A DNA stretch of 64,000 nt from Maribacter arenosus. GTDB lineage: Bacteria; Bacteroidota; Bacteroidia; Flavobacteriales; Flavobacteriaceae. Both the position numbers and the translations under genes were made by a program. The notes beneath the pieces are model-generated. The model saw only the letters and a program-made list of their open reading frames with translations. It was not told where the DNA came from and searched no databases. Below are positions 36,193-62,463 of this stretch, piece after piece (the first letter of the stretch is position 1; each line of letters begins with the position of its first letter). Location of the stretch: assembly GCF_014610845.1 (NCBI RefSeq), contig NZ_JABTCG010000001.1:1054001-1118000 (forward strand), given 5' to 3'.

Positions 36193-36203
36193 CTTTTTTG
36201 TTT

Positions 36204-41830: not shown

Positions 41831-42775
41831 CTATTTTTCAACCAATTGATTTGAAAAATATTCCCTCATTACCAATTTTGGAGTCCTGTCTACCTTAAAT
41901 AATCCCCAGTGTTTTTCGGGCTCAAGAGCTTCTCCCGATCCTTTCCAGGGTTCATCAAAAGCCTCGAAAACAAATGTAAGAATGTCATTCTCTTCGCACC
42001 AATCAACCAAATCATTGTAGTAAATTTGCTGGTGTTCCTCACTTACATTACTCGGGCAAATGCCTTTTCCGTTAGAAAAAGTTGTCCATCCTGCCTCAGT
42101 GATTACCACAGGCTTGTTCGGATAAGTGTCGGCCACGGCATAATAATTTTCCTTAGTGTACTCCAATGCCTCATGAATGAGCTTGTATTCCCATACGGGA
42201 TAGGTATGAATCGAAATAAAATCGACTTCCTCGACCAATTCTTTTAACTTATCAAGCCAAGGAAGGTAGTTTTCGCAAAAGGTAACAGGTTGTTTCGCTC
42301 CATTTTTAATCATCCTTACGTACTTGATGACATTGTCAACGGGGACATAGTGATCGGTCCAATCTACGCAAGCTTCATTTCCTGCAGATAACGAGAAAAT
42401 AATATCGGGATACTGGTTTGCCAAATGAATCAATTTATTGATTTGAGTGTCATTTGATATTTTGTTTTTCTCGAGTTGCTTCTCAGAATATGTCCCTCCC
42501 CAAGGGCAGCCATAATTGTTTGCCTCTGCAACTATGTAAGCCCCTAACATTACTTTAAAATCAAAATTTTCTTTTTGGATAACATCCAATACAATTTCGG
42601 CATGCACATCACAATCGTAGAGTCTTAAGTATTTCCAATGCTTATGAAGTATTAAAAGATCTTCTTTTATCTCCTCATAAGTAGGAACTTTTCCTCCAGG
42701 CATTTGCCCTTCCCTAAAACCGGAATAACATATAGCCCTTCCAGGTTCGATTTGTAATTCCTTGGTATATTTCAT
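41831..42775 (-). CDS. GH17-like enzyme, signal-less (PUL gene 12)
   Basis: A 314-residue TIM-barrel glycoside hydrolase of the GH17 type. Expected catalytic residues are E134 (acid/base, in SAGNEACVDWT) and E227 (nucleophile, in VVITEAGW). The barrel strands KYLRLYDCDVH, VMLGAYIV and DFISIHTYPVWEY support this, with substrate-cleft aromatics in EAFDEPWKG. No signal peptide is seen, so it should be cytoplasmic. GH17 enzymes act on beta-1,3-glucans as hydrolases or transglycosylases. It resembles the lipoprotein at 47605 more than the two GH17 domains before it, for example in GNEA/TEAGW and the HWGLF end. Confidence 0.85.
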   Translation of the reverse strand: MKYTKELQIEPGRAICYSGFREGQMPGGKVPTYEEIKEDLLILHKHWKYLRLYDCDVHAEIVLDVIQKENFDFKVMLGAYIVAEANNYGCPWGGTYSEKQLEKNKISNDTQINKLIHLANQYPDIIFSLSAGNEACVDWTDHYVPVDNVIKYVRMIKNGAKQPVTFCENYLPWLDKLKELVEEVDFISIHTYPVWEYKLIHEALEYTKENYYAVADTYPNKPVVITEAGWTTFSNGKGICPSNVSEEHQQIYYNDLVDWCEENDILTFVFEAFDEPWKGSGEALEPEKHWGLFKVDRTPKLVMREYFSNQLVEK

Positions 42776-42813: not shown

Positions 42814-43725
42814 CTAAAATTTTAATTTTTCATCTTTATCCCACAATCCCCAATATGCGCCAACATCACCTTCAGGTCCAACTTTCCATGATTCATCAAA
42901 AGAGGAAAAATAGAACATCTCAATATTCTGTTTGGCAGACCAAACTTGGGCATTGATAAAATATTTCATTGCATTTTCAGCTGATGGCTGGGCGCCTTTT
43001 AATCCTGTTCCTTGACTTGGCCACCCCGTCTCTGTAATAATAACCTTTTTACCATTAGCGGCATGTGTGGCTTGTCCGTACATCTGTTGCATATGACCTA
43101 AGGAATATTCGAACGGACAGCCTTCCCAATAGGGATAACAATTGGCTAAAATGACATCACATAAGGTGGTAATTCGAGGATGTTCACTAAACTCATAGTA
43201 CGCATCTACATAACCCACAGGAATGCCCTCTGGCAGCTTCGCTTTTACACGTTCAATGAAACCTATTAATTCTTCCTCACTCAAATCGTTTCTGTATAAC
43301 ACTTCGTTACCAACGGCTGCGATATCAACAAATCCTTCATTGGTCAATTGAATAAGTCCTTCTATTTCCCGCTCATTTATTTCAGGGTCATCTCCCAACC
43401 ATGCCCCAACTAAGGTTTTAATGCCATATTCCCGAGCTATTTTAGGTATAAACTCATTGCCTTCTGTGCAAGAAAAGGAACGAACCCATTTGGTATATGG
43501 TTTAATGATCTCCATTCGCCTTCTCACCTGCTCTTCAGTAATAACATCACCCGGTTTCTGCCCATCTTCATAAAGGCTGAAACACAAACCGTGCATTCCA
43601 CTTTTTAACGTTTTTCGCCATAATTTTTCAAGATCTTTTGATAGGTACTTACTAAAATCAACACCAACTTGTTGGGTTAAATCAATATCCTTTATTGAAA
43701 ATTCTTGTCCTTCTCTGTACGACAT
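42814..43725 (-). CDS. GH17-like enzyme, signal-less, sister of the fusion domain (PUL gene 11)
   Basis: A 303-residue protein with no signal peptide. E141 (in AAVGNEVLYRNDLSEEE) and E232 (in VIITETGWPSQG) are the GH17 pair. It aligns along its whole length with residues 485-782 of the preceding fusion protein: MHGLCFSLYEDGQ against VHGFCFSPYMEGQ, KWVRSFSCTEGNEFIPK against KWVRSFSCTDGNEFIPK, and the shared end FYFSSFDESWKV. This implies a local duplication. It is 14 bases from the fusion gene and 38 bases before the next GH17 gene. Confidence 0.88.
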   Translation of the reverse strand: MSYREGQEFSIKDIDLTQQVGVDFSKYLSKDLEKLWRKTLKSGMHGLCFSLYEDGQKPGDVITEEQVRRRMEIIKPYTKWVRSFSCTEGNEFIPKIAREYGIKTLVGAWLGDDPEINEREIEGLIQLTNEGFVDIAAVGNEVLYRNDLSEEELIGFIERVKAKLPEGIPVGYVDAYYEFSEHPRITTLCDVILANCYPYWEGCPFEYSLGHMQQMYGQATHAANGKKVIITETGWPSQGTGLKGAQPSAENAMKYFINAQVWSAKQNIEMFYFSSFDESWKVGPEGDVGAYWGLWDKDEKLKF

Positions 43726-43739
43726 AATTTCTTATTTTC

Positions 43740-46088
43740 TTAGTTACCAAATTTTATCTTTTCATTTTTATCCCATATTCCCCAACGGGAACCAACATCA
43801 CCTTCATGATGGACTTTCCATGATTCGTCGAACGACGAGAAATAGAACAATTCCACATCATTGCTCTTTGCCCAATTATTTGCGCTGATAAAATACTTCA
43901 TTGTATTTAGTGATGAAGGTAAGGCCTTATTGATTTTTTCTCCTTGATTTGGCCAACCTGTCTCAGAAATAATCACAGGTTTACCTTTTGAAACATTCTT
44001 GACAACTGAATACATCTGTTTAAGGTAAAGTGTAGAACGATCAAAATTGTATCCTTCCCAAAATGGGTAGCAGTTGATTAGAATTACATCGCAGGCGTCA
44101 ATAAGTGCCGGTCGATCAAGAAACTGATAATAGGCATCAACATAGCCTATTTTTATGTTTGGCAATGCACTTTTCACCTTATCAATATAAGACAGGATTT
44201 CAAGCTCTGTCAGTTCATTTCGCATCAACACCTCATTACCAATGACCGCCATATCCACATATCCATTTTGCCCTAAATCAATCAAGGTTTCTATCTCCTC
44301 GTCATTTTTTGTTTTGTCATTCCCGATCCAAGCACCGACCATTGTTTTTAATCCTTTCTTATGTGCTACTTTAGGAATGAACTCATTTCCATCGGTACAT
44401 GAAAAAGACCTCACCCATTTGGTGTAAGGTGCAATCACATCCATTCTCCGCTGTATTTGGTCTTCTGATAATTGATCCCCAATATTTTGACCTTCCATGT
44501 ACGGGCTAAAACAAAAGCCGTGCACTCCTTTATTCAAGGTAGCTGAAAAAAGTTTCTTGATTTCCCGTTCAGATTTTGAGGTAAAATCCAAGTCTGTGTT
44601 TGACCTGTAACCTGAATCAATCCCGACGAGTGTTAATAGTTTACCTTTTTTATAGTAAGTAGAGAGTTGCGGTGTGGTTTTGCTTTTGCGTTTATCTAAT
44701 TCCGCACGTATTTCATTGGCTCGTTCTTCAGTAACATTATAGTTTCGCATTATAAGCATTGCAACTATTGTTCCTACCATTGGGAAAAAGCAAAAGAAAG
44801 CATGCAGGCCATCAACCGCTCCCAGTTGTTCGGTTGTTGCCAAATCAGGGTTAAAACCAACAATGCCAATAATTACCCCACTAAGTGCTCCAGCTATGGC
44901 AAAGCCTACTTTTACCATCCACCAATAAATTGCACCAAAAATACCTTCCCGTCTTTTACCTGACTTCAATTCATCTATATCGATTACATCCGCAGTCATT
45001 GACATCATGATGGTAAATAAGCTCCCTATTCCAAAAGAGAAGAAGGGCAATGCAATGATGTACAACCAAGGTTTTCCCGGCACAAAGAGAAAATACATCA
45101 TTATGTAGCCTACAATCGAAATCGCTTGGGCCCACATAAACGCCTTTTTCTTACCCATCATTTTTGACATCCAAGTAACCACAGGAATTACAATAAAAGT
45201 GGTTCCCAACGCTCCTATGCAACCGAATAATGCGACCCAAATACCAGTAGCAGCTGCATCACCATTAAATAGTCTATAAACAATAACAAAATAGGTTAGC
45301 GCAGCTACGGTATTAAATGCATTAAAAATCAAAAACGTGGCACCACATATCTTCCTAAACTCTTCTATTTTAAAGGCATCCTTAAAACTTTCAACAATTT
45401 TCTTCAAACTACCCCCGATATTGGCAAAGTTCAGTGGCTCATAATTTTCTTCAAGGGTCGATTTGCTCTTAATAAACAAGGCAGGTACCATGGCAGCAAT
45501 TGCACATGGTACGGCCACCCAAACAGCCAATTCGCGAACAGCGACATCTTGAGACGGAAACCATTCTGGATCATCCATAATCACCCAAAACCATGGCGCA
45601 ATAACCCACGCCCATTGGCCAATCCATTGTGCAACAGCCATAATGTTGGTTCGTTCGTGAAAATCATCGCTCATTTCATAGCCCATAGCGACATAGGGTA
45701 CACTAAAAAAGGTAAGCCCCAAATAAAAGACGATTGACCATAAAAAGAAATACCAAAAATTATATTGTAAAGAATTATGCGTATATAATTGCCACATAAT
45801 GGTAAACGCCACACCCATTAAAATTGCACCAATTAAAACATATTGTTTGCGTCTTCCCCATTTCGATTTGGTATTATCAGAAATGAAACCCATTATAGGA
45901 TCTGTAATAGCATCAAAAACTCTTGGAAAAAAATAAACAAGAGACCATAACCATCCATTAAATCCAAATGATTGTACAAGTACAACCATAAATATTCCTA
46001 GAATTGCTGGGAACATTTGATTGGCGAGCATTCCTACGCCAAATGCTACTTTTTGACCGAATGGGACTTTAATTGTGGTTGTGGACAT
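43740..46088 (-). CDS. MFS (GPH-type) transporter fused to a GH17 domain (PUL gene 10)
   Basis: A single uninterrupted 782-codon frame. Residues 10-450 form a glycoside-pentoside-hexuronide-type transporter: DAITDPIMGFISDNTKSKWGRR (59-80), VPYVAMGYEMSDDFHERT (130-147), about 12 membrane segments and DVIDIDELKSGKRREG (368-382). A charged linker runs from 451 to 500. Residues 505-780 are GH17, with E619 (VIGNEV) and E709 (IISETGW). GPH transporters normally have both ends inside, so the hydrolase should face the cytoplasm. That would act on beta-1,3-gluco-oligosaccharides as they enter. A sequencing join is unlikely because the downstream gene has its own complete GH17 copy. Confidence 0.9.
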   Translation of the reverse strand: MSTTTIKVPFGQKVAFGVGMLANQMFPAILGIFMVVLVQSFGFNGWLWSLVYFFPRVFDAITDPIMGFISDNTKSKWGRRKQYVLIGAILMGVAFTIMWQLYTHNSLQYNFWYFFLWSIVFYLGLTFFSVPYVAMGYEMSDDFHERTNIMAVAQWIGQWAWVIAPWFWVIMDDPEWFPSQDVAVRELAVWVAVPCAIAAMVPALFIKSKSTLEENYEPLNFANIGGSLKKIVESFKDAFKIEEFRKICGATFLIFNAFNTVAALTYFVIVYRLFNGDAAATGIWVALFGCIGALGTTFIVIPVVTWMSKMMGKKKAFMWAQAISIVGYIMMYFLFVPGKPWLYIIALPFFSFGIGSLFTIMMSMTADVIDIDELKSGKRREGIFGAIYWWMVKVGFAIAGALSGVIIGIVGFNPDLATTEQLGAVDGLHAFFCFFPMVGTIVAMLIMRNYNVTEERANEIRAELDKRKSKTTPQLSTYYKKGKLLTLVGIDSGYRSNTDLDFTSKSEREIKKLFSATLNKGVHGFCFSPYMEGQNIGDQLSEDQIQRRMDVIAPYTKWVRSFSCTDGNEFIPKVAHKKGLKTMVGAWIGNDKTKNDEEIETLIDLGQNGYVDMAVIGNEVLMRNELTELEILSYIDKVKSALPNIKIGYVDAYYQFLDRPALIDACDVILINCYPFWEGYNFDRSTLYLKQMYSVVKNVSKGKPVIISETGWPNQGEKINKALPSSLNTMKYFISANNWAKSNDVELFYFSSFDESWKVHHEGDVGSRWGIWDKNEKIKFGN

Positions 46089-46099
46089 ATTACTTATTT

Positions 46100-47596
46100 T
46101 TAGTTTGGTTGTACTATTATTGTTTGTATGGCTTGTGCATCAATACTTATAACTTTTTTTAACTCTCCCAATGAAAGTTGAAAATGCATTTCTTCTTTAT
46201 CCTGATTGAATACTACAACCGCAATCGAACCATCTGGATTCTTGGCAGCTGTAATCAATAAAGTCCTATCAGAATTTTCGATTCCGATCTTAACAGCACC
46301 CGGTCTTATATATTTACTAAAATGCGCCATCGTGTAGAACAGAGGTGTAAAATAGACCTCATCTTTCTCGGGATCCACTATCACTGGGGCAATACACCAG
46401 TTTTTAAACCAATTCGGACCTCCTTTAGTGTCAAGTACCATATTCCAATCTACCCAACCATCAACCCAATTGTTCAAGCATCCTATGATATCCCTGGCAT
46501 AACGATTTACTGGTGCATATTTTGGGTGTAGATGTTTGTCCTCTTCCGGAGCCCATTCCCAACCCCAATCAGTTGCTTCTTTTTCCCAATACCATGCATC
46601 ATCTTGCCATACAGGAATTTCTGCATCTACACATGCCTCGGATTGAATAAGAAGTTTATCTGGAGCTTTTTTATGGGCATACTGAAGTTCTTCAGGAAAA
46701 ACTTCAAAGGTGCTGGCATACCAATGTATTGCTGTACCAGCGAAATATTTTGAACTGGCCTCATCCCGGAACATTTCATCCACCCATTCCTTTAGGTGTT
46801 CCCGATTTTGATCATACCCTAATATTTTTAAATTTCCTTTGCCGTCGGCTTCTAATTTTGGCCCTAAATGATTTTGGACAAAATCGGTCATTTCTTTGGG
46901 GGTAAAATGCATACTTTCCCAATTGTTACCATTACCCAATGGTTCATTTTCCACGGTAAATCCCCAGATATCAATGCCCTCTGCTTTATAAGCGTCTACG
47001 TATTTAGAGAAGAAAAGTGCCCAAGTATCATAATATTCTGGCAATAATTTTCCTCCGACCCAATTGTTATTGTCTTTCATCCAAGGAGCTGCAGTCCAAG
47101 GTGAGGCAAAAATCTTGAACCCGTGCTTAGATGCTGCCATAGCTTCCTTGATCATAGGAATCAAGTCGTCTTGATCTTCTTTAATGGAAAAATGCTCCAA
47201 GGCCTTATCCCCTTCTACCGGGCTGTATGAGTAATTACTTATAGAGAAGTCGCAAGAATTCATGTGTGTACGTGTTAACGAATAATTTGCTCCATCTTCA
47301 CTGAAATAGGCATCAATTATTTTTTGGCGATTCTCTTTGCCCAATTGGTTCAATAAATAGGCCGAAGATTCTGTAAAAGCACCACCAAACCCTGTTATGG
47401 TCTGAAATTCTTCTTCAGGAACTATTTTTATTTCGACTGCATTCCCTTGTTTAGCGAATTCTGTGACCTTTTTAAGTTTATTTCCACTAGCGGAAGTCTC
47501 ATAAACTTCAACCTCTAATGTCCCATCCTCTTTTTTGTTGCAACTGACCATGATTAAAATCGATAGCATTAGTACCCAGTAATGTCGTGTTTTCAT
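46100..47596 (-). CDS. GH30 family lipoprotein (PUL gene 9)
   Basis: A 498-residue lipoprotein (lipobox IMVSC, Cys19). The GH30 fold has ITGFGGAFTESSAYLL (67-82), SPWTAAPWMK (165-174), the acid/base E218 in FTVENEPLG and the nucleophile E320 in LIQSEACVD. It ends with a beta-sandwich side domain. GH30 members of this kind, near laminarin genes, usually remove beta-1,6-linked glucose branches, though a beta-1,6-glucanase or other beta-glucosidase role is possible. A residue-based surface export signal is not obvious (CNKKED), so it may face the periplasm. Confidence 0.9.
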   Translation of the reverse strand: MKTRHYWVLMLSILIMVSCNKKEDGTLEVEVYETSASGNKLKKVTEFAKQGNAVEIKIVPEEEFQTITGFGGAFTESSAYLLNQLGKENRQKIIDAYFSEDGANYSLTRTHMNSCDFSISNYSYSPVEGDKALEHFSIKEDQDDLIPMIKEAMAASKHGFKIFASPWTAAPWMKDNNNWVGGKLLPEYYDTWALFFSKYVDAYKAEGIDIWGFTVENEPLGNGNNWESMHFTPKEMTDFVQNHLGPKLEADGKGNLKILGYDQNREHLKEWVDEMFRDEASSKYFAGTAIHWYASTFEVFPEELQYAHKKAPDKLLIQSEACVDAEIPVWQDDAWYWEKEATDWGWEWAPEEDKHLHPKYAPVNRYARDIIGCLNNWVDGWVDWNMVLDTKGGPNWFKNWCIAPVIVDPEKDEVYFTPLFYTMAHFSKYIRPGAVKIGIENSDRTLLITAAKNPDGSIAVVVFNQDKEEMHFQLSLGELKKVISIDAQAIQTIIVQPN

Positions 47597-47604
47597 AATA
47601 TAGG

Positions 47605-48903
47605 TTATTTCTGTTTTTCGGCTATTTCCTTAGCAGTTGGTGGGACTTCTACATCTTTCATTAAGGTATCTTTATCCCCATCGAATGTTTTGGCAATAGT
47701 ATTTCCATTTCTTGTCAATCCTTCAAAAACCCCATTATCCACAGCATCCCATAATGCATATTTTGCTTTGCCATCAACCGTAAATAATCCGAAATGGTTT
47801 TCTGACCCCATTTTATTATCAGCATCTTTCCATGGTTCATTAAAAGCCTCAAAGTAGAAACATGAAATACCCGCTTCATTGGTCCATTTGCGTATATGCT
47901 TATAGTACAATGCTTCTTTATATTCATCCGTAGCTCTTGATCCAGAAGGTCCATAAAAACCATCAGAAACAGTCGCCCAACCTGTTTCGCCAATATGAAT
48001 GGGTTTCTTAATGCCCAAACTAGCCACATAATTCGAAACACTGTCATATTGGGCTTTGGCAAAATCCAATGCTCTGAGCATCGCAGCATCGATTTTTTTG
48101 ATGTCCGATAACTTTGATTCATTTTCTGGAACTCCCCAAAATTTAGGGTTATAATGCGTATTATGATAAGGATAGGTATGCATTGAAATAAAGTCTACAG
48201 CACTAACCAATTTTTCAAGATCTTCGGTATGATAACTCGCATCACCTCCGCCCCATGAAGAAAAATCATCAGAACTGGTTATCCATAAATCCTTAGGAAG
48301 CTTTCCTTCCTTCTTCAAATCTTGGAGATAGTTTACCCATTTTAAGATAACCGAAGGCTGTACGTAATACGTTGCTGCCCAACGCACCATGGCCTCGTTA
48401 CCTACTGCAATTACTTTCACAATATCTGGATATTGATTTGCCAAATAGGCCGCTACTAAAATTTGATTTGCATTAGCTTCACTTTCTTTTTCATGATCCG
48501 GCTCCATATCTGTCCATGCATTTTTACAATCTATCCAAGCACCTAGCATGACGTACATTTCAAAATTTGGGTCGTCTTGTTTTAATTCACTAATAGCTTT
48601 TATTAGATTAGTAGCTTGAGGCAAGTGCACTTTATAGGTGCGTAGAATTTTAATACCCATCGCCGCCAAAATTCCCAGATCCTCTTTGAGCTGTTCTATT
48701 GCGGGTTCAATGTCGTGATCGACATGTCTATACCCTCCATAGGACATGGCCAAATAATCTGGATTTCCCAAAATGTCTTTTGCACTTAAACTTACTTGTT
48801 CTTTCACGGTATCCGGGTTACTTTCTTTATTAGGTTCGTTCTTGCAAGAAAAACTAAAAATCATTGATAATAGAACCATAGTTGTTTTTAAATGTTTCTT
48901 CAT
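47605..48903 (-). CDS. GH17-like lipoprotein (PUL gene 8)
   Basis: A 432-residue lipoprotein (lipobox FSFSC, Cys20, followed by KNEPNKES). The GH17-type barrel holds E170 (acid/base, in IAVGNEAMVRW) and E306 (nucleophile, in IHIGETGW). DFISMHTYPYHNTH and EAFNEPWKDADNKMG are further landmarks, and ENHFGLFTVDGKAKY ends the barrel. It would cut beta-1,3-glucan oligosaccharides in the periplasm or at the outer membrane. It is the envelope-anchored counterpart of the three cytoplasmic GH17 domains in the locus. Confidence 0.87.
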   Translation of the reverse strand: MKKHLKTTMVLLSMIFSFSCKNEPNKESNPDTVKEQVSLSAKDILGNPDYLAMSYGGYRHVDHDIEPAIEQLKEDLGILAAMGIKILRTYKVHLPQATNLIKAISELKQDDPNFEMYVMLGAWIDCKNAWTDMEPDHEKESEANANQILVAAYLANQYPDIVKVIAVGNEAMVRWAATYYVQPSVILKWVNYLQDLKKEGKLPKDLWITSSDDFSSWGGGDASYHTEDLEKLVSAVDFISMHTYPYHNTHYNPKFWGVPENESKLSDIKKIDAAMLRALDFAKAQYDSVSNYVASLGIKKPIHIGETGWATVSDGFYGPSGSRATDEYKEALYYKHIRKWTNEAGISCFYFEAFNEPWKDADNKMGSENHFGLFTVDGKAKYALWDAVDNGVFEGLTRNGNTIAKTFDGDKDTLMKDVEVPPTAKEIAEKQK

Positions 48904-48912
48904 CCCAATAAT

Positions 48913-51900
48913 TTATTTGTTTATCGATGCTATTATTTGTTTGATTTCTCCTGTTCGTTCAAATACTTTCTTACTTGTTGCCAGGTCAAGGTTTAAGCGG
49001 TCATATTCAAGAACTGAATCATCACTCATAATTACTTTCATTCCCTCTTTCCCTGCCAATTTGTAGATGATAGGAATCTGGCAATAGGTAAAGCAAATTG
49101 ACCCTATCTCAAGTTCAATTTCTTCTATATCCTTCTTGATATTCACATAAGTGAATGTCTCTGCCTTTTTTAGGAATTCTTCTTTTCTTAACAAACGAGG
49201 GTTAAACATTAGTTTGCCTTCTGATACGAATACGCCCAGTTCCCCGAATCGGCTTAAAATATCTTCTTTTACCTGACCGGTCATACCCGGTTGCTGGGCA
49301 CCTTTTGTCGCTGGTGTATGGGAATAAGGGTCAGTTGGGAAAGCACCATATAATTCTGGGGATTTATGAACTCCTATCCCCTCATTGATTTCATAATAGT
49401 GTTCTAATAACTTTCCTATTGTCACTTCGCTTTCATTATTTCCAATTGCCAATAAACAGGTTTCTTGAACGCTCAACAGTAATTTCGAAACCATATGCCA
49501 ATAGATAGACCCTAAACCTTCATAACCAAAGAAGGTTCCTGAACGACCTGTGAAGGATTTGTGATCGAAAATTTCTTCGAACGTATCTAGGAGCAAGTCT
49601 TTATCTTTTTCAATCAATTCTCCATATGGCTCGGATGGAAGCTTAGACAATGCTTCTATTAAGCTTTTGGCATTATTAAATGTTCCGTTAAAATGGTAGT
49701 TGCCCTGAACATCCTGTAGAACTATCTGTTTGTTCCCGTCTTTTAAAAGTCGTTTTAGTAAGGCAGATGCTTCTATATTTTTAGTAGAAATATTGTTTTT
49801 TACATCGAACCTCGGTAATTCTTTGTTCGGATATAATATATAACTGTATTGATCCGGTCTAAACAAGGCACTCGCTTTTAAAGCGTCTAATACCTCTAAT
49901 GATTCCGCCCCCGAAATATATCCGGAACTTAATACGGCCACCTGTCCTTCCAGCATTTCCGGCAAGTAAGAAATAGATACTTCTGAATCATTCTTTATTG
50001 TCATTAAATTGTAGGCATGATAAAGGTTATCATCCCTTTTATTGGCATCAATGGAATGATCCAAGTACTTTTTGGAGATTTCAAGAAAGCGCAACAGATC
50101 ATTTTTGGTTATGGCCTCTTTATCACCTGAAAAACCATTTTCATAAATATGTGTTCTATAATCACTCCCTGCACTTCCAAGTCCGTCTAATACTGTCTTT
50201 CTATCCTTATCGGAAACTTTCCCAGTAAGAATGCTTTCATTTTTATTTAAGGTCGAAAGCACTTTATTAAAGAATTCGGCTAATTCGATTGAAACCTCAC
50301 TGTCTTTACCAGGTCGATTTTTAACAATGCCCTCAAGGAAGTTTAAAAATCGTCGTAAATAATATAGCGTGACCATCGATACGCCATTTCCTACCAAGGC
50401 ATTGTTGGCGTCATTCCATTCAGGCCTTTGTGTATTCATCCAGATTCCTCCTTCTGGAATAAAGTTCGACACCTTGGCCAATACGGTTGCCAATAATTTT
50501 TCGACAAGATTTACTTTGTAGATAAAGTGGTTCCTATCGCTAAGTAAGGCACCATCGGCACCCAGTTCGATTCTTTTTTGGGCAATCCTTTGATCCGATT
50601 CATGGTCAAAATCAATCGTATCCTTGGGGTTGGCCAAAATATCCCGGTAGCTTTTTATTTTGTAAGGCACATTGGCGTATACAAATATGTCTTGTTTAAA
50701 ATATGTCGCTAATTTGTTGGGATAATGGTCTTCGATAAACTCCAAGAACTTTAGTAGATAGATGATTTGATGATCTCCCCAATACCCTATATATGACCAT
50801 GGATCATCGGGTTCTATGGTTTCCCAATCAAATCCTCCTTTTGTGACACGGTAAGGATTGTAACCGTCAAAGGTGGTTGCATTCAAAAATTTATGGATCA
50901 TACTTTCGATGAACTCTGGGTAAGAATGTGCCAAGGCTTCCCAGTTTTGAAAAATGTCACGCCAATTACCTTCATAATCCAATATTTTTGAACCATCTAG
51001 TTCATTGGTCGTGTTAATTGAAAATCTGTTCCAAGGTCTACTGGGGTCTCCATGCCTTCTACTAAATTTAAGAGGCATGTATTCAATCGCAAGTCTTTTA
51101 AAGTTTTTGTCCTGATCTTTCTCTGTTAAGGATTTCAAATGACCAAGTGTAAATACTTCTGGAAGATTTCTTAAGAGATCTTCCTTTTTCTTGAATACTT
51201 TTTTACTCGCGTTTTCAATGTATTTTACAAAATCCCATTTTTCAATATGATAGCCATCATCAAAAATACCCCCACGCATAATATTAAAAAGGGTATTTGA
51301 AAAATGTCTTGTATTCCTTAGTTTGTCCGCTGTGAGCTGTATCCCGTCAGAAGCCCCATTCAACTCCAGTAAATTTCCAGACCCTAGTTCTATGTCTTCC
51401 TGAATAATTGGGATTATATCGGTTTTACTTTTAATCAGTTCGGTGATTTCACTGATATTGACCATGGATTGGTTTACATTGGCCACTATCATCCAGGTTT
51501 TTTCACTACCGGGTTCCAATGCCATATCCGAACAAACAAAATAAGCGCCTTTCTCGGCCTTAATATCTATCTCTTGTTCAATCTCTTTACCCCTCCTGAA
51601 GGCATCAAGTTGTAGGGAAGAAACCAAATATTTGGCATTTTCAATACCCGCCGACCAGGCAATTGTCGCTTTTAGGGCTTCACTAGGTTCGGCCTTATCA
51701 ACAATAATGGCACTCAGTGCATATATGCCGATGCCAACTTCTGCCTCCAATTCATTTTTTTTGTAAGCATCGACCAAATTACTTTGTCTATTCTGTAGGT
51801 CGGATATAACACCAAAGGGAATTATATTTTGAATTCCGTCCAACACGGTAACTTGAATCCCGTTATTGGTATCGTTGATTATGGTCGATTTTTTTACAAA

Positions 51901-52413
51901 ACCGTATTTATCACTCGAGTTCCATTGGTACCGGAATGTAAGGCCTAAATCTTCATTGATTTCTTCGAAAACAATCTTGTTGCCATAGTTGTTTTTGTAC
52001 AAATTTCTATGGGTCTTATAGATACCGACATATCTAGTGGAAAAAGGTTCCCATAAATAGGTCTTGCCATCGGCATGTACTTGAAGTAAGGTTTTACTTC
52101 CCGTAATTTCTGCTGATTCAGTAATTTTATCATCAGTATAATAAGGGAATAAAGCAGATTCGCTGTCTTTTCTTCCTGCGGTCAACCCACCATTACTTGA
52201 GATGAACATCCAGTGGTTTGAATCGCTAACGATGCTCATGAAGAAAGGCCTTATGGCATCACTATTAAAAATTTTATAATAGTTCTCATTTTCAAAAACT
52301 ATTTGTTTTCCCTTTACTTCCACTTCTTTAAACGAAGCTTTTTGGTTTCGTATATAAATTGGATTTGTATTCATTCTTTTTATTTTTGGGTCACCCGTTT
52401 TATTTTCAATCAT
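48913..52413 (-). CDS. GH149-type beta-1,3-glucan phosphorylase (PUL gene 7)
   Basis: A 1166-residue protein without signal peptide. It resembles the GH94-related phosphorylases. The N-terminal part is a large beta sandwich (about 40-340). The helical barrel (about 375-1000) has LDYEGNWRDIFQNWEALAHSYPEF near residue 500 and GYWGDHQIIYLLKFLE. The segment YGAFPTDPYSHTPATKGAQQPGMTGQ (about 1038) is a likely phosphate/sugar-binding part. Size and motifs fit GH149, in which beta-1,3-gluco-oligosaccharides are split with phosphate to glucose 1-phosphate. GH161 is an alternative but is usually shorter. It overlaps the sugar-porter stop by one base (TAATG), so translation is coupled. Confidence 0.75.
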   Translation of the reverse strand: MIENKTGDPKIKRMNTNPIYIRNQKASFKEVEVKGKQIVFENENYYKIFNSDAIRPFFMSIVSDSNHWMFISSNGGLTAGRKDSESALFPYYTDDKITESAEITGSKTLLQVHADGKTYLWEPFSTRYVGIYKTHRNLYKNNYGNKIVFEEINEDLGLTFRYQWNSSDKYGFVKKSTIINDTNNGIQVTVLDGIQNIIPFGVISDLQNRQSNLVDAYKKNELEAEVGIGIYALSAIIVDKAEPSEALKATIAWSAGIENAKYLVSSLQLDAFRRGKEIEQEIDIKAEKGAYFVCSDMALEPGSEKTWMIVANVNQSMVNISEITELIKSKTDIIPIIQEDIELGSGNLLELNGASDGIQLTADKLRNTRHFSNTLFNIMRGGIFDDGYHIEKWDFVKYIENASKKVFKKKEDLLRNLPEVFTLGHLKSLTEKDQDKNFKRLAIEYMPLKFSRRHGDPSRPWNRFSINTTNELDGSKILDYEGNWRDIFQNWEALAHSYPEFIESMIHKFLNATTFDGYNPYRVTKGGFDWETIEPDDPWSYIGYWGDHQIIYLLKFLEFIEDHYPNKLATYFKQDIFVYANVPYKIKSYRDILANPKDTIDFDHESDQRIAQKRIELGADGALLSDRNHFIYKVNLVEKLLATVLAKVSNFIPEGGIWMNTQRPEWNDANNALVGNGVSMVTLYYLRRFLNFLEGIVKNRPGKDSEVSIELAEFFNKVLSTLNKNESILTGKVSDKDRKTVLDGLGSAGSDYRTHIYENGFSGDKEAITKNDLLRFLEISKKYLDHSIDANKRDDNLYHAYNLMTIKNDSEVSISYLPEMLEGQVAVLSSGYISGAESLEVLDALKASALFRPDQYSYILYPNKELPRFDVKNNISTKNIEASALLKRLLKDGNKQIVLQDVQGNYHFNGTFNNAKSLIEALSKLPSEPYGELIEKDKDLLLDTFEEIFDHKSFTGRSGTFFGYEGLGSIYWHMVSKLLLSVQETCLLAIGNNESEVTIGKLLEHYYEINEGIGVHKSPELYGAFPTDPYSHTPATKGAQQPGMTGQVKEDILSRFGELGVFVSEGKLMFNPRLLRKEEFLKKAETFTYVNIKKDIEEIELEIGSICFTYCQIPIIYKLAGKEGMKVIMSDDSVLEYDRLNLDLATSKKVFERTGEIKQIIASINK

Positions 52414-53954
52414 TATTTTCTCACAAGCAGTTCTTCAACTTCTTCCAATGATTTTCCCTTTGTTTCAATTACGAACTTATAGACAAACAGAATTGCGCAT
52501 AATGAAAGAATCGCATATATGGCAAAAGTGACCGTTGGTCCTAGATTTGACAATTCCCAAGGGAAAACCTGTGTCACTGAAAAACTGACCAAAGAATTGA
52601 AAAAACCAACTGCCGATATCGCAATTCCTTTGATTTTACTAGGAAATACCTCCGAAAAAAGGGTCCACATAACCGGTCCTAGTGAGATTGCAAAAGAAGC
52701 CACATAAAGCAAGATAGCAATCAAGACCAATGTTGCGTTGATCTGAATGAAATTTGTAATCTGGTTTCTTTTAAAATCCAAAAATTGATCGTCATTCAAT
52801 TTGGGTTCAACTTGTTCGAAAAGTGCTGCTTGGCCTTCAAAAGTCTTCCCTTTCAATTCTGTCAAGGCTGTTTGAATTTCAATATTACCAATTTTATCCA
52901 AATTTGCATCATTAAAGTCGTACGTTGCATTATTAAAGGCAAAGGCCGCCATCATAAGGGCAATGGTCATGAATGTAGTACCTATTAGTAATAAAGGTTT
53001 TCTCCCTAATCTATCAATTAACCAAATGGCCACCAAAGTGAAAACCAAATTTGTAAGTCCAACAACAATAGCTTGTAGAAAGGATGAATCCGTACTACCG
53101 CCGGCTTGTTCAAATATGGTGGGAGCATAGTAGAAGATCGCATTGATCCCTGTAATCTGTTGAAAGAATGCAATACCGAGGGCGATGGTCATAATGGTGG
53201 CATATTTGCTTTTAAACAAATCGGATAGTTTGCCTTTTGCCTCTTTTTTGGCCTGTCCCCTCTGAATTTCTGCTATTGTGATCTCGGCATATTCTTCACC
53301 TCCGATTTTCAATAGTATTTTTCGGGCGAGCTTTACTTCATTCAGTTTTAGAATCAACCATCTTGGACTTCTAGGTACGGTCCAGAGGGTTATAAAGTAT
53401 ATAGCCGCAGGGATCGCTTCCACACCAAGCATCCATCGCCAGCTTTCACCTTCTAAATTGACCAGAAAATAATTAGAAAAGTAAGCTACCGATATACCAA
53501 TAACAATATTCAATTGATTAAAAGATACCAAGCTACCCCTAAGTTTGGGAGGAGCTATTTCGGCAATATAAATAGGGGCGATCAAAATCGCACCACCAAT
53601 TCCAATTCCACCGATTATCCTTGCAATGATAAATTCGGTATAACCCGTAGCCATTGCAGACCAAGAAGCGGATATAGCGAATAGGGCAGCAACTATTATC
53701 AGTATTTTTTTTCTTCCAAATCTATCAGCCATAGGTCCTGCCAAAAGATTACCTGCCATAGCGCCAAAAATGACACATCCAACCGCAAAACCTAGCATGG
53801 AATCCGTCATATCGAAATAAACGGTTATGCCCTTAACCGCTCCTGAAATGACCGCACTATCAAAACCCAACAAAAATCCTCCCAATGCAACGATTAAGCT
53901 GATAAGGATAGTATAGGATTTATTCATTTTTATTTCCGGATCGATTTTTTTCAT
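52413..53954 (-). CDS. Sugar-porter MFS transporter (PUL gene 6)
   Basis: A 513-residue protein of the sugar porter subfamily with 12 membrane segments. The signatures are GGFLLGFDSAVISGAVKGI, DRFGRKKILI, PRSPRWLI, QQITGINAIFYYAPTIFEQAG, DRLGRKPLL and a terminal ETKGKSLEEVEELL. A long hydrophilic insertion of about 65 residues (about 350-415) lies in a periplasmic loop and is shared by some Bacteroidota members. It would import glucose or laminari-oligosaccharides across the inner membrane. The alternative start is M10 (MNKSYTIL). Confidence 0.9.
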   Translation of the reverse strand: MKKIDPEIKMNKSYTILISLIVALGGFLLGFDSAVISGAVKGITVYFDMTDSMLGFAVGCVIFGAMAGNLLAGPMADRFGRKKILIIVAALFAISASWSAMATGYTEFIIARIIGGIGIGGAILIAPIYIAEIAPPKLRGSLVSFNQLNIVIGISVAYFSNYFLVNLEGESWRWMLGVEAIPAAIYFITLWTVPRSPRWLILKLNEVKLARKILLKIGGEEYAEITIAEIQRGQAKKEAKGKLSDLFKSKYATIMTIALGIAFFQQITGINAIFYYAPTIFEQAGGSTDSSFLQAIVVGLTNLVFTLVAIWLIDRLGRKPLLLIGTTFMTIALMMAAFAFNNATYDFNDANLDKIGNIEIQTALTELKGKTFEGQAALFEQVEPKLNDDQFLDFKRNQITNFIQINATLVLIAILLYVASFAISLGPVMWTLFSEVFPSKIKGIAISAVGFFNSLVSFSVTQVFPWELSNLGPTVTFAIYAILSLCAILFVYKFVIETKGKSLEEVEELLVRK

Positions 53955-54358: not shown

Positions 54359-55468
54359 TTATTGGTATACCCTCACATAATCAATTTCAAGGATGTCTTG
54401 GGTAAAGTTTTCCGGCACATCCCCGCCCAAAGTACCTCCTATAGCCAGGTTCATCAATACATAGTGCAGATTGTTATAGGGCTTGTTAGAAGAATTAGGC
54501 AGTTCATAGATCATTTCGTTATCCACATATATTTTTATGCTACTGCTGTTCCATTCCATAGAGTAAATGTGAAATGCACTGGAAGCATCCGAAATTGAAG
54601 TTGTACCACCAGAGTTCATATATTCACCTGTATTCATGTCTCCCCAATGAAAATGAGCTATAACACTATTTTTGTTCCATCCATTTTGTTCCATAATATC
54701 AATTTCTCCACAAGCTGGCCAACCCACGCTGCCATATTGGTCACCAAAATAGTTGCCTGTTTCATTGATGTTCGCACCAAGAGTCCAAAATGCAGGCCAT
54801 GTACCTTTTTCAATAGGAAGTTTGGCGCGAAACTCAATACGGCCATAGGTAAATACAAATTTTGAATTTAATCTTGCTGAAGTATATGATTTAGTGGAGC
54901 TGTTTGTAGTGTATTGTTCTTTTAAAGCTACAATTTTTAGAGTGCCGTCACTCACGAATGAATTGTCAGCTCTATCGGTATAATGCTGCAGCTCATTATT
55001 ATACCAACCCCCATTATTTGGTGGAATGACTTGATGGTGCCACTTTTCAGAATCAGGGCTTCCTTCATATTCAAATTCATCTGAGAATACCAAGGTGGCA
55101 AAACCTTCGTCAGATTTAAAAACTTCCACGCTCAGCGTTTCATTGACAAAGTCTCCGGCTTCTGAATAAGCCCATGCCGTAATAGTATACGAATGCGTAC
55201 CAACTTTGGTGAATGCATGCTCTATGGAGCCAGAAGGGCTTTCTTGCAAATCCCCATTTTCAAATCTAAACGCATATCTGACAGCATTTTCGGCCGAGGC
55301 AGAAACCTGCACTACCCCTGAACCATCCCCGTTTGGGTTTGTGGCATCCGAACCAACTATGGTTACGTTCAACACTAGTTTGGATGGTATATTGTTGGGC
55401 TGTGAATCCCCTTCACTACATGAGATCACAAGCATTAGGATTATCAAGGCCCTGTGTAAATAGTTCAT
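54359..55468 (-). CDS. GH16 laminarinase-type lipoprotein (PUL gene 4)
   Basis: A 369-residue lipoprotein (lipobox MLVISC, Cys17, followed by SEGDSQ). Residues 30-118 form a PKD-like beta domain (HAFTKVGTHSYTITAWAYSEAG). Residues 122-369 are GH16, with the catalytic signature GEIDIMEQNG: E255 nucleophile, D257, E260 acid/base. GTWPAFWTLG and GRIEFRAKLP are also conserved. It should hydrolyse internal beta-1,3 links of laminarin and is likely exposed on the cell surface. Confidence 0.94.
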   Translation of the reverse strand: MNYLHRALIILMLVISCSEGDSQPNNIPSKLVLNVTIVGSDATNPNGDGSGVVQVSASAENAVRYAFRFENGDLQESPSGSIEHAFTKVGTHSYTITAWAYSEAGDFVNETLSVEVFKSDEGFATLVFSDEFEYEGSPDSEKWHHQVIPPNNGGWYNNELQHYTDRADNSFVSDGTLKIVALKEQYTTNSSTKSYTSARLNSKFVFTYGRIEFRAKLPIEKGTWPAFWTLGANINETGNYFGDQYGSVGWPACGEIDIMEQNGWNKNSVIAHFHWGDMNTGEYMNSGGTTSISDASSAFHIYSMEWNSSSIKIYVDNEMIYELPNSSNKPYNNLHYVLMNLAIGGTLGGDVPENFTQDILEIDYVRVYQ

Positions 55469-57857: not shown

Positions 57858-59471
57858 TTAGTTATATCCATCGTTTTGAGGATAACTAGGCCCTAATAGA
57901 TCCATTTGTTGCTGAGGAATTGGCCAATTTTGCATATACTCTCGAAGTATAACCTTTGGGTTACCTTCAGGGTACGACTCATTCATATTATCGTTGTTCA
58001 TATGATCTAGCAAAAACTCATACAATTTACCGGTTCTTTTGAGGGTATACCAACGTTGCCCTTCAAATGCAAGTTCGCGGGCCCTCTCGTCTAAAATTGC
58101 CTGCAGATCAACTGTGGTTACAGATGCTGCATTGGCTCTATTCCGTACTTCATTAATGTATTCCAACGCTTTCGTATTATTTCCCAACATCATGTGTGCT
58201 TCGGCTCCTATTAAATAGGTTTCGGCCAATCTGTAGATCATAATATTTTTAAAGTGATTTCTATCAGTGGGTTCCACATTCTCATCAAAGAATTTCAAGA
58301 CCCCTGGGTTTTGTCTCCTATAATAGAGCATAAACTCATTTTGATCGGTTTCACTATTTTCATATAGGTCCAATGGATCACCCAACTGTTTGCCTGGTGG
58401 GAGCGAAGGCTCATCGTTATAGGCATACTTGAAAATATAATAGGTATTGTCCTTTCTGTCATCATTGGGGTCCTCATTCAGCAAATTGATGGTATAATCA
58501 TTCAATGATAGGAAACCTACTCCGGCCCCTCCATTTTCAATCGACTGTATCATACCAGGCGCATCGGCATAGGATGATACCACATTCCAGTTCATGATAT
58601 GTGGACTACCTCCTCCTATTGTCTCATTTTCAAAATTAAGGGCAAACAATGTTTCAGAATGATCTAATTCACCCGCAAATACTTCGGCAGTTGTTGCGGT
58701 TAGGCTATGGTTGCCACTATTTATTACAGCATCTGTTTGTGCGGCTGCTTCGTCCCAGTCATTTTCCCACATGGCCACCTTGGCCCTAAGATGCCTTGCC
58801 GCACCTTGACCCCATCTGCCAAACTCTTCTGGATTGTATTCCAGGTTGGTAATGGCAAAATCCAAATCTGCCCTTAATAGCGAAAATATTTCCTCTTTGG
58901 AAGATTTGTCTTGTGGTACATCAAACGCATTTTCAGGAGTGGTAGGTTCCGTAGTGATAAAAATATTGTTGAAGAGTCTGTACAGGATAAAATAGGAATT
59001 AGCCCGCATGCATTTGGCTTCGGCCAAGATTTGGTTTCTTCTACTATCATCAATATCCTGTAAATTCTCAGCTCCTTGTATAATGGCATTTGCCCTGTCC
59101 ACTATTTTGTAATAATTCACCCAATAGGCATTAACCCCTGAAGTGGTTCCGAAGTCCCCCAAACTTGCACCCCAAAGTAATCTACTGTATAGAGAAACTT
59201 CTCCGGTTATTCCAACTCCAAGGTCACTCTTGGCCTGTGGAATAAGTGGGTATGTGCCGTTTAAGCTTAAGTCTTGGTAAAGATTCCTATTTAAAGAATA
59301 TAATCCCACAACTGCAGACTCCAGGCCTTGAGGGGTTGAATACAGGAAATCAACAGAAGTGTTCGAAAGAAGCTTGTCCTCTAGAAAATCCTCCCCGCAG
59401 GAAGTAAAAAGGAAAAGGCAACCTAGAATTGTATAAAAGCTTTTTGATAACATATTATTTAAATTTTTCAT
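57858..59471 (-). CDS. SusD-family nutrient-binding lipoprotein (PUL gene 2)
   Basis: A 537-residue lipoprotein from the ATG at 59471 (lipobox FLFTSC, followed by GEDFLED, a surface-export-like acidic run); a longer alternative start at 59504 would overlap susC. TPR-like helical SusD landmarks are NAYWVNYYKIVDRANAIIQGAENL, EAKCMRANSYFILYRLFNN and, near the C-terminus, MIYRLAETYLIGAEAHMML and RELAFEGQRWYTLKRTGKLYE. It forms the lid of the SusC pore and binds glucan at the cell surface. It is 10 bases after susC. Confidence 0.95.
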   Translation of the reverse strand: MKNLNNMLSKSFYTILGCLFLFTSCGEDFLEDKLLSNTSVDFLYSTPQGLESAVVGLYSLNRNLYQDLSLNGTYPLIPQAKSDLGVGITGEVSLYSRLLWGASLGDFGTTSGVNAYWVNYYKIVDRANAIIQGAENLQDIDDSRRNQILAEAKCMRANSYFILYRLFNNIFITTEPTTPENAFDVPQDKSSKEEIFSLLRADLDFAITNLEYNPEEFGRWGQGAARHLRAKVAMWENDWDEAAAQTDAVINSGNHSLTATTAEVFAGELDHSETLFALNFENETIGGGSPHIMNWNVVSSYADAPGMIQSIENGGAGVGFLSLNDYTINLLNEDPNDDRKDNTYYIFKYAYNDEPSLPPGKQLGDPLDLYENSETDQNEFMLYYRRQNPGVLKFFDENVEPTDRNHFKNIMIYRLAETYLIGAEAHMMLGNNTKALEYINEVRNRANAASVTTVDLQAILDERARELAFEGQRWYTLKRTGKLYEFLLDHMNNDNMNESYPEGNPKVILREYMQNWPIPQQQMDLLGPSYPQNDGYN

Positions 59472-59481
59472 AATATTTTTT

Positions 59482-62463
59482 TTAAAACCCAACTTTGACC
59501 CCAATCGTTATATTTCTGGTTTCTGGAAATGCCGTTCCACCGCTGTCGTTGAGCGGATTTTGTTCTGGACTATATGATCTGAAATCTGTAAAAGTGAACA
59601 AATTGGTGCCCGTTACATATATTTTTGCATTTTGAAATCCAATTTTTGAAAGCGTCTCTTTAGGGATATTATAACCCAGTGACAATGTCCTCAACCGAAC
59701 ATATGAAGCGTCCCTGACAGCAAACGGAAAAAGGTGTAAATGGGTGTCAGGTTTAGGTCTGGGATAGTCCGTTGAAGGAAATTCTGGCGTATAGTACTTC
59801 GTCCGAATTCCATTGATCGCTCCTTTCCATAGCTCCCCATTGGCCAGAACTGGATTCAATTTTGTTGCTCCTTCTACGATATAGATGTCGGCAAACAGGT
59901 CAAAATTCTTGAATGAAATGGTATTGGTTATCGAACCATACCAATCAGGATCTGTACTTGTAAATACATTGTCCCTGTTATCAATCTGTCCATTCCCATC
60001 TTGATCTATTACCCTAACGTCACCTGGTTGGGCCAAAGGGTTCCCTGAACCTGCAATATCATCACCTACTTGATAGATTCCATCGTACTTCGGTAGCCAA
60101 ATGTTGTTGATAGGCTGACCTACTGATAATCGTCTTCCTGAAGCAATGTCCGTGATATCAATTTCATTACCATTTTCATCAAGTTCTCCTGTGAGCGAAA
60201 GAACCTCGGTCCTGTTCCTTGAAAACACCATACCTAAAGACCATCGTAAGTTTTCATTTCGTATAATATGAGACGTCAAAGATGCTTCAATACCGCGGTT
60301 CTCAAGTTCGCCAGCGTTAAAGCGGATTACGTTGAACCCCGTAGTACCGGCAATTGACCTATCCAATAATAAATCGGTGGTGTTCGCTTTATAATATTCC
60401 AAAGTACCCTCAAAGCGGTTTTTAAACAACCTAAAATCAATACCGGTATTCAAGGTAGTAGTGGTTTCCCACCTCAAGTCTGGATTGGGCAAACGTGAAG
60501 AGGCAGTTGCTCCTGCCACGGTTTGATCCCCAAAAACATAAGGTATGTCATCGGCTACACCCAAGGACTCCAACGAATTGATACCTTGATTTCCCGTGGT
60601 CCCGTAGCTGACCCGCAATTTCATTTCATTTATGGCATCCACATTTTCTAAAAATGGCTCGTTCTGCATTTTCCAGGCTAGAGAAACTGCGGGGAAGAAT
60701 CCCCATTTATTGTTCTCAGCAAATACAGAGGCACCATCGGCACGGGCCGTTGCCTCCAGCAAATACCGATCAAGATATCCATATCGTACCCTACCCAAAA
60801 AGGAGAGCAATTTACGTTGTGATACGTCTCTTTGGTTATTGAGAAGTACAGTTGCGTTTCCATTAAAACCAAGAGCATCATTGGTAAAGCCTGATTTGTC
60901 AATTTGGGTATATTCATTCCGCTGTTCATCAAAGGCTTGAACTGCAGTAAAGTCTAGACTATGGTTTTCGTTGATCTGTGGTGTATAGTTGATGATGTTT
61001 TCCACCAAAACCTGTTTAAATAATTGGTTTGAAATAACTGCAAGTCCATCTATCCCTTCATCCCCTGCTGAATGTAAGGATGTTCTATATATGCCCCTAT
61101 TTGTATTTCTGTTCCTCAAAAACGTCTTTAAGGTGTAGCTTAGATTGGGTGTAAAGTTGTACACCAAGCTGAGGTTGACATCTGTGAGGTTTGTTTTTGT
61201 CTCGTCGGTTGATTCCCTTTGATCCCATAGTGGGTTTACCGCAGTGTTTGATGGCCCTAAATAGAATTTGAGCAATTCGCCCTCATCGCCTATTGGTTTG
61301 GCCAAGGGTGTTATGGTAGTAAAGTTTAGGCCGCCTGTTTCTTGATCCTGTATGGAATTTTGATAGTTGAAAATTCCTCTGAATAAAAGTTTATCCGTTA
61401 ATTCCTGCTCCAAGTTCAGTTTCAAAGTACCTCTATCAAAACTAGAATTTGGGATAATACCTTCTTGAGCGAAATAATTGACACTTGAAAAAACCTTGGT
61501 TTTTTCAGTACCTGCTGAAAAACTCAAAGCATGGCTCTGTATTACTGCGTCCTGTAATACCAAATCTTCCCAATCTACAAAGTTACCATTCTCTATGGCT
61601 TCGATTTCAAAAGGAGTAAAAATGTTTTCATCCCTCAAGTATTCTCCAGTAAATCTATTACGGTTCGCTTCCCTCTTTAAATCAATGTACTGCTGACCGG
61701 TATATTGATTGAAATTTTTAGACAATGATTGTATAGTGGTATAGCCGTGGTAGTCAATAGATACTTTGCCGGTCTTCCCCGTTTTAGTGGTAACCAGTAT
61801 AACACCATTTGACGCCCTTGAACCATAAATCGCAGTTGCCGAGGCATCTTTTAGGATTTCTATATTGGCTATATCATCCGGTGATACATCATTTAAGCTA
61901 TCAAATGGCAAGCCATCAACTATTATTAACGGAGAGTTTCCATTTGGAGCAACAGATACATTACCCCGAATGACAATATTGGAGGCCCCTCCTGGTCTTG
62001 CATCGCCTAGATTAACTTGGACACCTGCCGCTCGACCCCGTAACATCTCCGATACGTTTGTGGTTGGTACAGACGTGGCGTCGTCAACCTCAACGCTTGT
62101 TACAGAGCCAACTACGTTGCTCTTCTTTTGTGTACCATAACCCACGACAACAACTTCCTCCAATGCACTTACATCATCTTGCATTATTACGGTAAGTTCT
62201 ACGGATTCGCTAATAGGGATCTCCTGGGTAACAAACCCTAAATAGGAGAAGACAATAATATCCCCGGCTGAAAGATTTGTAAGATTGAAATTTCCATCAA
62301 AATCGGTAGTGGTTCCGGTGGTAGAATTCTTAACTATTATACTTACCCCGGGTAAGGGCTCACTGTAACTTGCATCCTTAACAACTCCACTAATTGTCAA
62401 GTCCTGGCTCCATAAATTTTGCATGCTACAGATGACAGTAAGAAATAAAAAAATGCGCTTCAT
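59482..62463 (-). CDS. SusC-family TonB-dependent outer-membrane transporter (PUL gene 1)
   Basis: A 993-residue protein with a signal peptide (1-19, ending LWSQ). A carboxypeptidase-D-like domain (about 22-105, SGVVKDASYSEPLPGVSIIVK, GNFNLTNLSAGD) precedes the TonB box EEVVVVGYGTQKK (about 117) and the plug, with SEMLRGRAAGVQV, SPLIIVDGLPFDSLNDVSPDDIANIEILKDASATAIYGSRASNGVILVTTK in sequence. A large barrel ends in an aromatic residue (GVKVGF). It imports glucan oligosaccharides with SusD. It is the first structural gene of the locus. Confidence 0.96.
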   Translation of the reverse strand: MKRIFLFLTVICSMQNLWSQDLTISGVVKDASYSEPLPGVSIIVKNSTTGTTTDFDGNFNLTNLSAGDIIVFSYLGFVTQEIPISESVELTVIMQDDVSALEEVVVVGYGTQKKSNVVGSVTSVEVDDATSVPTTNVSEMLRGRAAGVQVNLGDARPGGASNIVIRGNVSVAPNGNSPLIIVDGLPFDSLNDVSPDDIANIEILKDASATAIYGSRASNGVILVTTKTGKTGKVSIDYHGYTTIQSLSKNFNQYTGQQYIDLKREANRNRFTGEYLRDENIFTPFEIEAIENGNFVDWEDLVLQDAVIQSHALSFSAGTEKTKVFSSVNYFAQEGIIPNSSFDRGTLKLNLEQELTDKLLFRGIFNYQNSIQDQETGGLNFTTITPLAKPIGDEGELLKFYLGPSNTAVNPLWDQRESTDETKTNLTDVNLSLVYNFTPNLSYTLKTFLRNRNTNRGIYRTSLHSAGDEGIDGLAVISNQLFKQVLVENIINYTPQINENHSLDFTAVQAFDEQRNEYTQIDKSGFTNDALGFNGNATVLLNNQRDVSQRKLLSFLGRVRYGYLDRYLLEATARADGASVFAENNKWGFFPAVSLAWKMQNEPFLENVDAINEMKLRVSYGTTGNQGINSLESLGVADDIPYVFGDQTVAGATASSRLPNPDLRWETTTTLNTGIDFRLFKNRFEGTLEYYKANTTDLLLDRSIAGTTGFNVIRFNAGELENRGIEASLTSHIIRNENLRWSLGMVFSRNRTEVLSLTGELDENGNEIDITDIASGRRLSVGQPINNIWLPKYDGIYQVGDDIAGSGNPLAQPGDVRVIDQDGNGQIDNRDNVFTSTDPDWYGSITNTISFKNFDLFADIYIVEGATKLNPVLANGELWKGAINGIRTKYYTPEFPSTDYPRPKPDTHLHLFPFAVRDASYVRLRTLSLGYNIPKETLSKIGFQNAKIYVTGTNLFTFTDFRSYSPEQNPLNDSGGTAFPETRNITIGVKVGF

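Follow-up and report, generated by a model that had tools for sequence, protein, structure and literature searches.

Among the major storage sugars of algae is laminarin, whose hydrolases and transporters in Formosa have been reported to belong to the most abundant proteins of bloom samples (PMC6246565). In Formosa sp. Hel1_33_131, the protein FORMB_24740 consists of an N-terminal major facilitator superfamily (MFS) transporter joined to a GH17 domain, FbGH17B, and its gene adjoins those of FbGH17A (24720) and FbGH30 (24730); Unfried et al. (2018) described it, raised the possibility of a coupling between hydrolysis and uptake, and reported from BLAST that the MFS-GH17 fusion is common among marine Flavobacteriia (PMC6246565). 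In a 2023 study, most of the variant 1 laminarin polysaccharide utilization loci (PULs) that were expressed contained one or more GH17-MFS fusions, with SAR92, Luminiphilus and one SAR86 metagenome-assembled genome (MAG) among the carriers (PMC10108472). The counterpart MFS and GH17B of Muricauda are reported as separate genes (PMC13188888). The gene studied here lies in a 64,000-nucleotide stretch of Maribacter arenosus DNA (contig NZ_JABTCG010000001.1, positions 1,054,001 to 1,118,000; the window) and is a new example of this FbGH17B-type MFS-GH17 fusion. Like FORMB_24740, going by its published description, it combines a 12-helix MFS transporter and a C-terminal GH17 domain in one gene of a laminarin locus, follows GH17A and GH30 in gene order, and has Met at the position of Tyr136 in MlGH17B (PMC11005184); the species is different. 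A fusion from a Formosa MAG (L063) is 67% identical to the window's in the MFS part and 66% in the GH17 part, and the variant 1 PUL fusions of Bacteroidota, SAR92, Luminiphilus and SAR86 MAGs are alike in architecture and context as described (PMC10108472). The window copy is thus one further member of a known fusion, to which the present analysis adds distribution, clade, residue 622, topology and other fusions.

The coding strand is the minus strand (the plus-strand reading of 43740-46088 contains many stops), and the frame runs from an ATG start without an internal stop through MFS_2 and GH17, joined uninterrupted. Pfam MFS_2 matches residues 16-454 (E 5e-66, 223.4 bits against a cut-off of 27) and Glyco_hydro_17 (PF00332) matches residues 705-780 (E 5e-9, 36.7 bits against 28.2); the rest of the barrel is covered by a phmmer match to 4wtp (residues 539-771, E 3e-31). 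With PF00332 above its cut-off, both catalytic glutamates and the fold of a solved GH17 enzyme, the C-terminal domain belongs to GH17. The structure was predicted from an alignment of 84 of the 86 fused proteins then in hand (the near-duplicates L032 and L038 were omitted) with a pLDDT of 85.4; an earlier prediction from a three-row alignment (pLDDT 51.1) was discarded. In the model comparison, the VIA-align rows refer to the transporter only, and the GH17 part was matched by Foldseek. The original prediction of a single 782-codon frame with an MFS transporter, a GH17 domain and the catalytic glutamates E619 and E709 was confirmed by the open reading frame (ORF), by Pfam and phmmer, and by alignment with relatives; the two-domain architecture was found in many genomes and in published work. 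The source assembly reads the identical frame, which is not independent evidence; independent support comes from equivalent joined frames in other genomes. The MFS-GH17 fusion is real, and chance is excluded. Release of a free GH17 enzyme from an internal start was considered and rejected for the window gene, where no in-frame ATG occurs within residues 448-530 and the alternative start codons near the linker are TTG at 500 and 518 and GTG at 522; other members of the family may have one, as a Met lies in the linker region of 35 of the 84 fused proteins.

With a probability of roughly 0.75, the window protein is an FbGH17B-type fusion of a laminarin utilization locus that works as follows. SusCD would import laminarin into the periplasm, where a GH30 enzyme would strip the β-1,6 branches and a GH17A-type enzyme would cut the chain to oligosaccharides, both roles being suggested by characterised Formosa and Muricauda homologues. 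The GPH-like transporter would move the debranched laminari-oligosaccharides over the inner membrane, probably as a cation symporter; the GH17 domain, held on the cytoplasmic side by a flexible linker, would cleave them as a β-1,3-glucanase or exo-glucosidase; and GH149 and the separate GH17 enzymes would handle the remainder. The analysis itself establishes the frame, the domains, the catalytic residues, the predicted fold, the locus, the clade and the predicted membrane side; the substrate of the fusion, its cation coupling, hydrolysis over transfer and any benefit of tethering are inferred. Several observations weigh against this reading. Many close relatives of the transporter have no GH17 domain, so transport evidently needs none; over 73 loci, transporter identities correlate with those of the fused GH17 at r 0.39 and with those of the separate GH17 at r 0.45; residue 622 is an imperfect marker of activity, with Tyr in 7 of 102 fused-clade domains and Leu in 15 of the 169 others; and the transporter missed the NCBIfam cut-off for GPH (TIGR00792, 186.2 against 231.35 bits), hence the name GPH-like.

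Coupled transport and hydrolysis is plausible, and the idea was published before. The strongest alternative, to which we give even odds, is that the fusion merely co-localises and co-expresses two independent parts, with no coupling between transport and hydrolysis. The linker is of low model confidence, unfused transporter orthologues occur, including those of the congeners G004, G006 and G010 (80-82% identity), and the fused pair co-diverges no more tightly than the transporter and the separate GH17. Of the 84 fused proteins, the co-divergence set took in the 73 whose locus has exactly one separate GH17, L111, L112 and L113 being excluded; pairwise identity averaged 0.73 for the transporter, 0.65 for the separate GH17 and 0.62 for the more divergent fused GH17, and special co-evolution of the transporter with its fused GH17 was not found. 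Against this alternative stands the fused-type GH17 clade: it holds 102 fused domains and none of the 168 unfused ones, an indication that tethering is of importance to the enzyme.

In the GH17 tree of 271 distinct domains, each more than 40% identical to the window's fused domain, one branch separates 102 of the 103 fused domains from all 168 unfused ones (SH-aLRT 100, two changes). The domains were mostly reached via the transporter, together with GH17-led picks from the 30 best loci of the family GH17 search, and the tree was enlarged by 40 regions chosen to include the highest-scoring unfused matches; the single fused clade persisted after this enlargement, with higher support. The smaller set gave the same picture, with 88 of 89 fused and 0 of 125 unfused domains in the clade (FastTree 0.832, SH-aLRT 97). 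The window domain falls inside the clade, as does that of the Formosa MAG. The sole fused domain outside it, that of L113 (3384-5846, genome G100), belongs to the standalone type of GH17 and has Tyr at 622, and the L113 linker contains MSFREERF, which resembles the start of separate GH17 genes. Found in a single genome, this fusion appears to have arisen separately and more recently. In the transporter tree of 118 domains, 17 changes between fused and unfused states are needed, or 16 without L099, which was labelled unfused owing to a broken frame. Unfused transporters stand there beside fused ones: L036 with L032/L033 (support 87), L076 with L043 (96), L122/L123 with L128 (100), and L005, from the window's genus, with L037 (95). 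Because no unfused GH17 in the tree is of the fused type while unfused transporters neighbour fused ones, the fused GH17 domain seems to have been lost repeatedly. Stop-codon read-through was also considered for adjacent unfused transporter-GH17 pairs, as 13 of 13 shared a reading frame and in several a lone stop parted the two genes; it was rejected because the tblastn locus ranking favours in-frame pairs, and among otherwise-fetched pairs, a few of them identical genes fetched twice, only 7 of 39 were in frame.

A useful addition from these trees is an apparent asymmetry, in that transporters manage without the enzyme while no member of the fused GH17 clade was seen apart from a transporter; this makes the tethering idea testable on orthologues that occur naturally with and without the fusion. 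Should tethering prove beneficial, the protein would be one of few natural examples in which a transporter hands its cargo directly to a hydrolase. Other fusion types exist: a standalone-type GH17, a second transporter clade (L111 and L112, in which a fused-type GH17 sits on a transporter about 40% identical to the window's) and one MFS-GH3 protein. The last, in G442 (L114, 4047-7451), combines MFS_2 and a complete GH3 within a single frame of 1135 residues, with a distant GH17 match next to it; it was the only such fusion in 392 phylum genomes, and a narrow literature search found none described. A bolder reading, which we regard as unlikely, is that the fused-type GH17 depends entirely on its transporter, tethering at the cytoplasmic mouth trapping incoming laminari-oligosaccharides by immediate hydrolysis as a hydrolytic counterpart of group translocation, and that fusions of transporter and glycosidase have been rebuilt repeatedly by selection in laminarin-type loci; the cases would be the old GH17 clade, its joining to a second MFS clade, the standalone-type GH17 in G100 and the MFS-GH3 protein in G442.

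At the positions of E619 and E709, all 76 fused and all 102 unfused GH17 relatives in the alignment have Glu, and the 4wtr sequence, from an entry titled 'active-site mutant', carries Ala opposite E709. For MlGH17B of Muricauda lutaonensis, Tyr136, Trp191 and Glu192 are regarded as important to transfer; in RmBgt17A, a Tyr to Ala change at the equivalent position abolished it (PMC11005184). In the window protein this set is incomplete, since M622 replaces the Tyr while W677 and E678 (equivalent to Trp191 and Glu192) are retained, both being conserved in 76 of 76. FbGH17B, which has Met at the same position (PMC11005184), is reported to process oligosaccharides to glucose (PMC6246565), and by this likeness M622 leans towards hydrolysis over transfer. 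Across the fused clade (n = 102), residue 622 is Leu in 63, Met in 25, Tyr in 7, Gln in 3, Phe in 2 and His in 2; outside it (n = 169), Tyr in 154 and Leu in 15. The rule, a sequence-based correlation, weakened on enlargement, Tyr having occurred in 1 of 88 in the first smaller set. A fused GH17 acting as a β-1,3-glucanosyltransglycosylase that lengthens or branches incoming oligosaccharides has some points in its favour, namely the Rhizomucor transglycosylase 4wtp as closest PDB relative, the conserved W677 and E678, the seven Tyr-bearing domains of the clade, and the remark that FbGH17B possibly has undetected transglycosylase activity (PMC11005184); set against the Met here, the RmBgt17A mutant and the glucose reported from FbGH17B, it is improbable. 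The original prediction had left glucanase and transglycosylase side by side, and M622 now favours the first. RmBgt17A (4wtp/4wtr) shares the GH17 fold and catalytic residues and differs as a fungal, separate transglycosylase with Tyr102. MlGH17B is likewise a GH17 of such a locus type, with the Glu pair and the acceptor-site Trp and Glu, and differs as a separate, predicted cytoplasmic transglycosylase with Tyr136 (PMC11005184, PMC13188888). Judged by the Tyr motif alone, its better counterpart in the window would be the separate GH17 (42814-43725), which would thus have a better claim to transfer than the fused domain.

Residues 7-472 of the transporter take a MelB-like fold in the predicted structure (PDB 7l16, 9old and others) at about 16% identity; MelB has no C-terminal enzyme. 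D59, D63, T126 and K393, aligned to MelB D55, D59, T121 and K377 at positions counted by hand on the alignment, are kept in all 84 fused proteins. The places of MelB D124 and R149 are taken here by S129 and Q154. Given the cation-site and sugar-site roles that we take these MelB positions to have, the pattern suggests cation coupling with a sugar site unlike that of MelB. The original assignment to the GPH type holds by Pfam MFS_2, the MelB-like fold and the acidic pair of the cation site, and falls short at the NCBIfam model. Both ends of MelB are cytoplasmic, and the K/R-rich loops alternate as expected with the C-terminus in the cytoplasm; because of this charge pattern and the MelB-like fold, the GH17 domain is likely on the cytoplasmic side, as had been predicted from the start. 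A periplasmic GH17 domain is very unlikely on the same two grounds, and the two adjacent separate GH17 genes (42814-43725 and 41831-42775) have no N-terminal signal peptide visible by eye; in its favour, the neighbouring GH30 and GH17A are thought to be periplasmic, and Unfried et al., where they mention simultaneous cleavage and transport, name no side (PMC6246565).

With the whole-protein query, both parts were found in one stop-free frame in 16 of 392 phylum genomes, the window's included, all confirmed by ORF reading. The GH17-domain query matched at E 1e-70 or better in 112 of 395 family genomes, and a fused frame of at least 782 residues occurred in at least 27 of the 395, again confirmed by ORF reading (G398 and G111 are counted also among the 16). 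In the MFS_2 search of 99 genomes, with up to 15 candidates scored per genome, 50 distinct genes in 35 genomes were listed, and the six in frames longer than 600 residues were all GH17 fusions. The best 80 of 551 loci, a ranking biased toward fused copies, comprised 66 fused (L094 runs off its contig), 13 unfused and one broken frame (L099), and included Flavobacteriaceae, Cyclobacteriaceae, Saprospiraceae and Chitinophagaceae. Two plasmid records matched; in neither did any single place cover 80% of the query. A sequencing or assembly artefact that hid a stop between the domains, which unfused orthologues within the same genus might suggest, can be dismissed, as the joined frame recurs in many independent genomes and the fused GH17 domains form their own clade.

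The fusion adjoins GH17A-type and GH30 genes in a SusCD locus with GH149 and GH16 (Table 1); it starts 11 bases past the GH30 gene and ends 14 bases before the separate GH17 gene. PDB entry 6fcg, matched by the GH17A-type enzyme, is the structure of Formosa FbGH17A.

Table 1. Parts of the fusion gene and genes of the surrounding laminarin locus (window coordinates).
Feature	Position	Strand	Basis or remark
MFS-GH17 fusion gene	43740..46088	minus	782 aa + stop; ORF reading and Pfam
MFS_2 (GPH-like) transporter, residues 1-470	44679..46088	minus	ends in predicted cytoplasmic C-terminal helix
Linker, residues 471-504	44577..44678	minus	model confidence <50 at 470-478 and 491-496
GH17 barrel, residues 505-780	43749..44576	minus	Pfam, phmmer, predicted structure, Foldseek
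E619, general acid/base position	44232..44234	minus	alignment
E709, nucleophile position	43962..43964	minus	alignment
M622, equivalent to MlGH17B Tyr136	44223..44225	minus	alignment
Separate GH17, standalone type (Tyr in motif GNEVLYR)	42814..43725	minus	best PDB relative 4wtp transglycosylase
Third, divergent GH17	41831..42775	minus	6fcg E 1e-32 vs 4wtp E 1e-12
GH30	46100..47596	minus	Pfam; lipoprotein-like signal peptide (by eye)
GH17A-type laminarinase	47605..48903	minus	6fcg E 2e-192 over residues 8-429; lipoprotein-like signal (by eye)
GH149 β-1,3-glucan phosphorylase	48913..52413	minus	NCBIfam equivalog, 1812 bits vs cut-off 1150
Sugar_tr MFS sugar transporter	52413..53954	minus	Pfam
GH16	54359..55468	minus	
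Carbohydrate-binding module (CBM) protein	55657-57822	minus	
SusD-like protein	57858..59504	minus	
SusC/RagA TonB-linked outer membrane protein	59482..62463	minus	

The third GH17 is about 25% identical to the fused domain, and similar genes flank the GH17 genes of other loci (e.g., L118, L126 and L128). The CBM protein gene contains about three tandem units of about 498 bases at 55676-57084 (91% matches), which suggests a recent internal duplication of the binding module. Outside the locus, the mutually adjacent membrane protein genes at 36198-37121 and 37134-38147 look alike by eye and are likely a tandem duplication, and a gene for a DUF349 protein has degenerate 81-base repeats in its N-terminal part (39145-39312).
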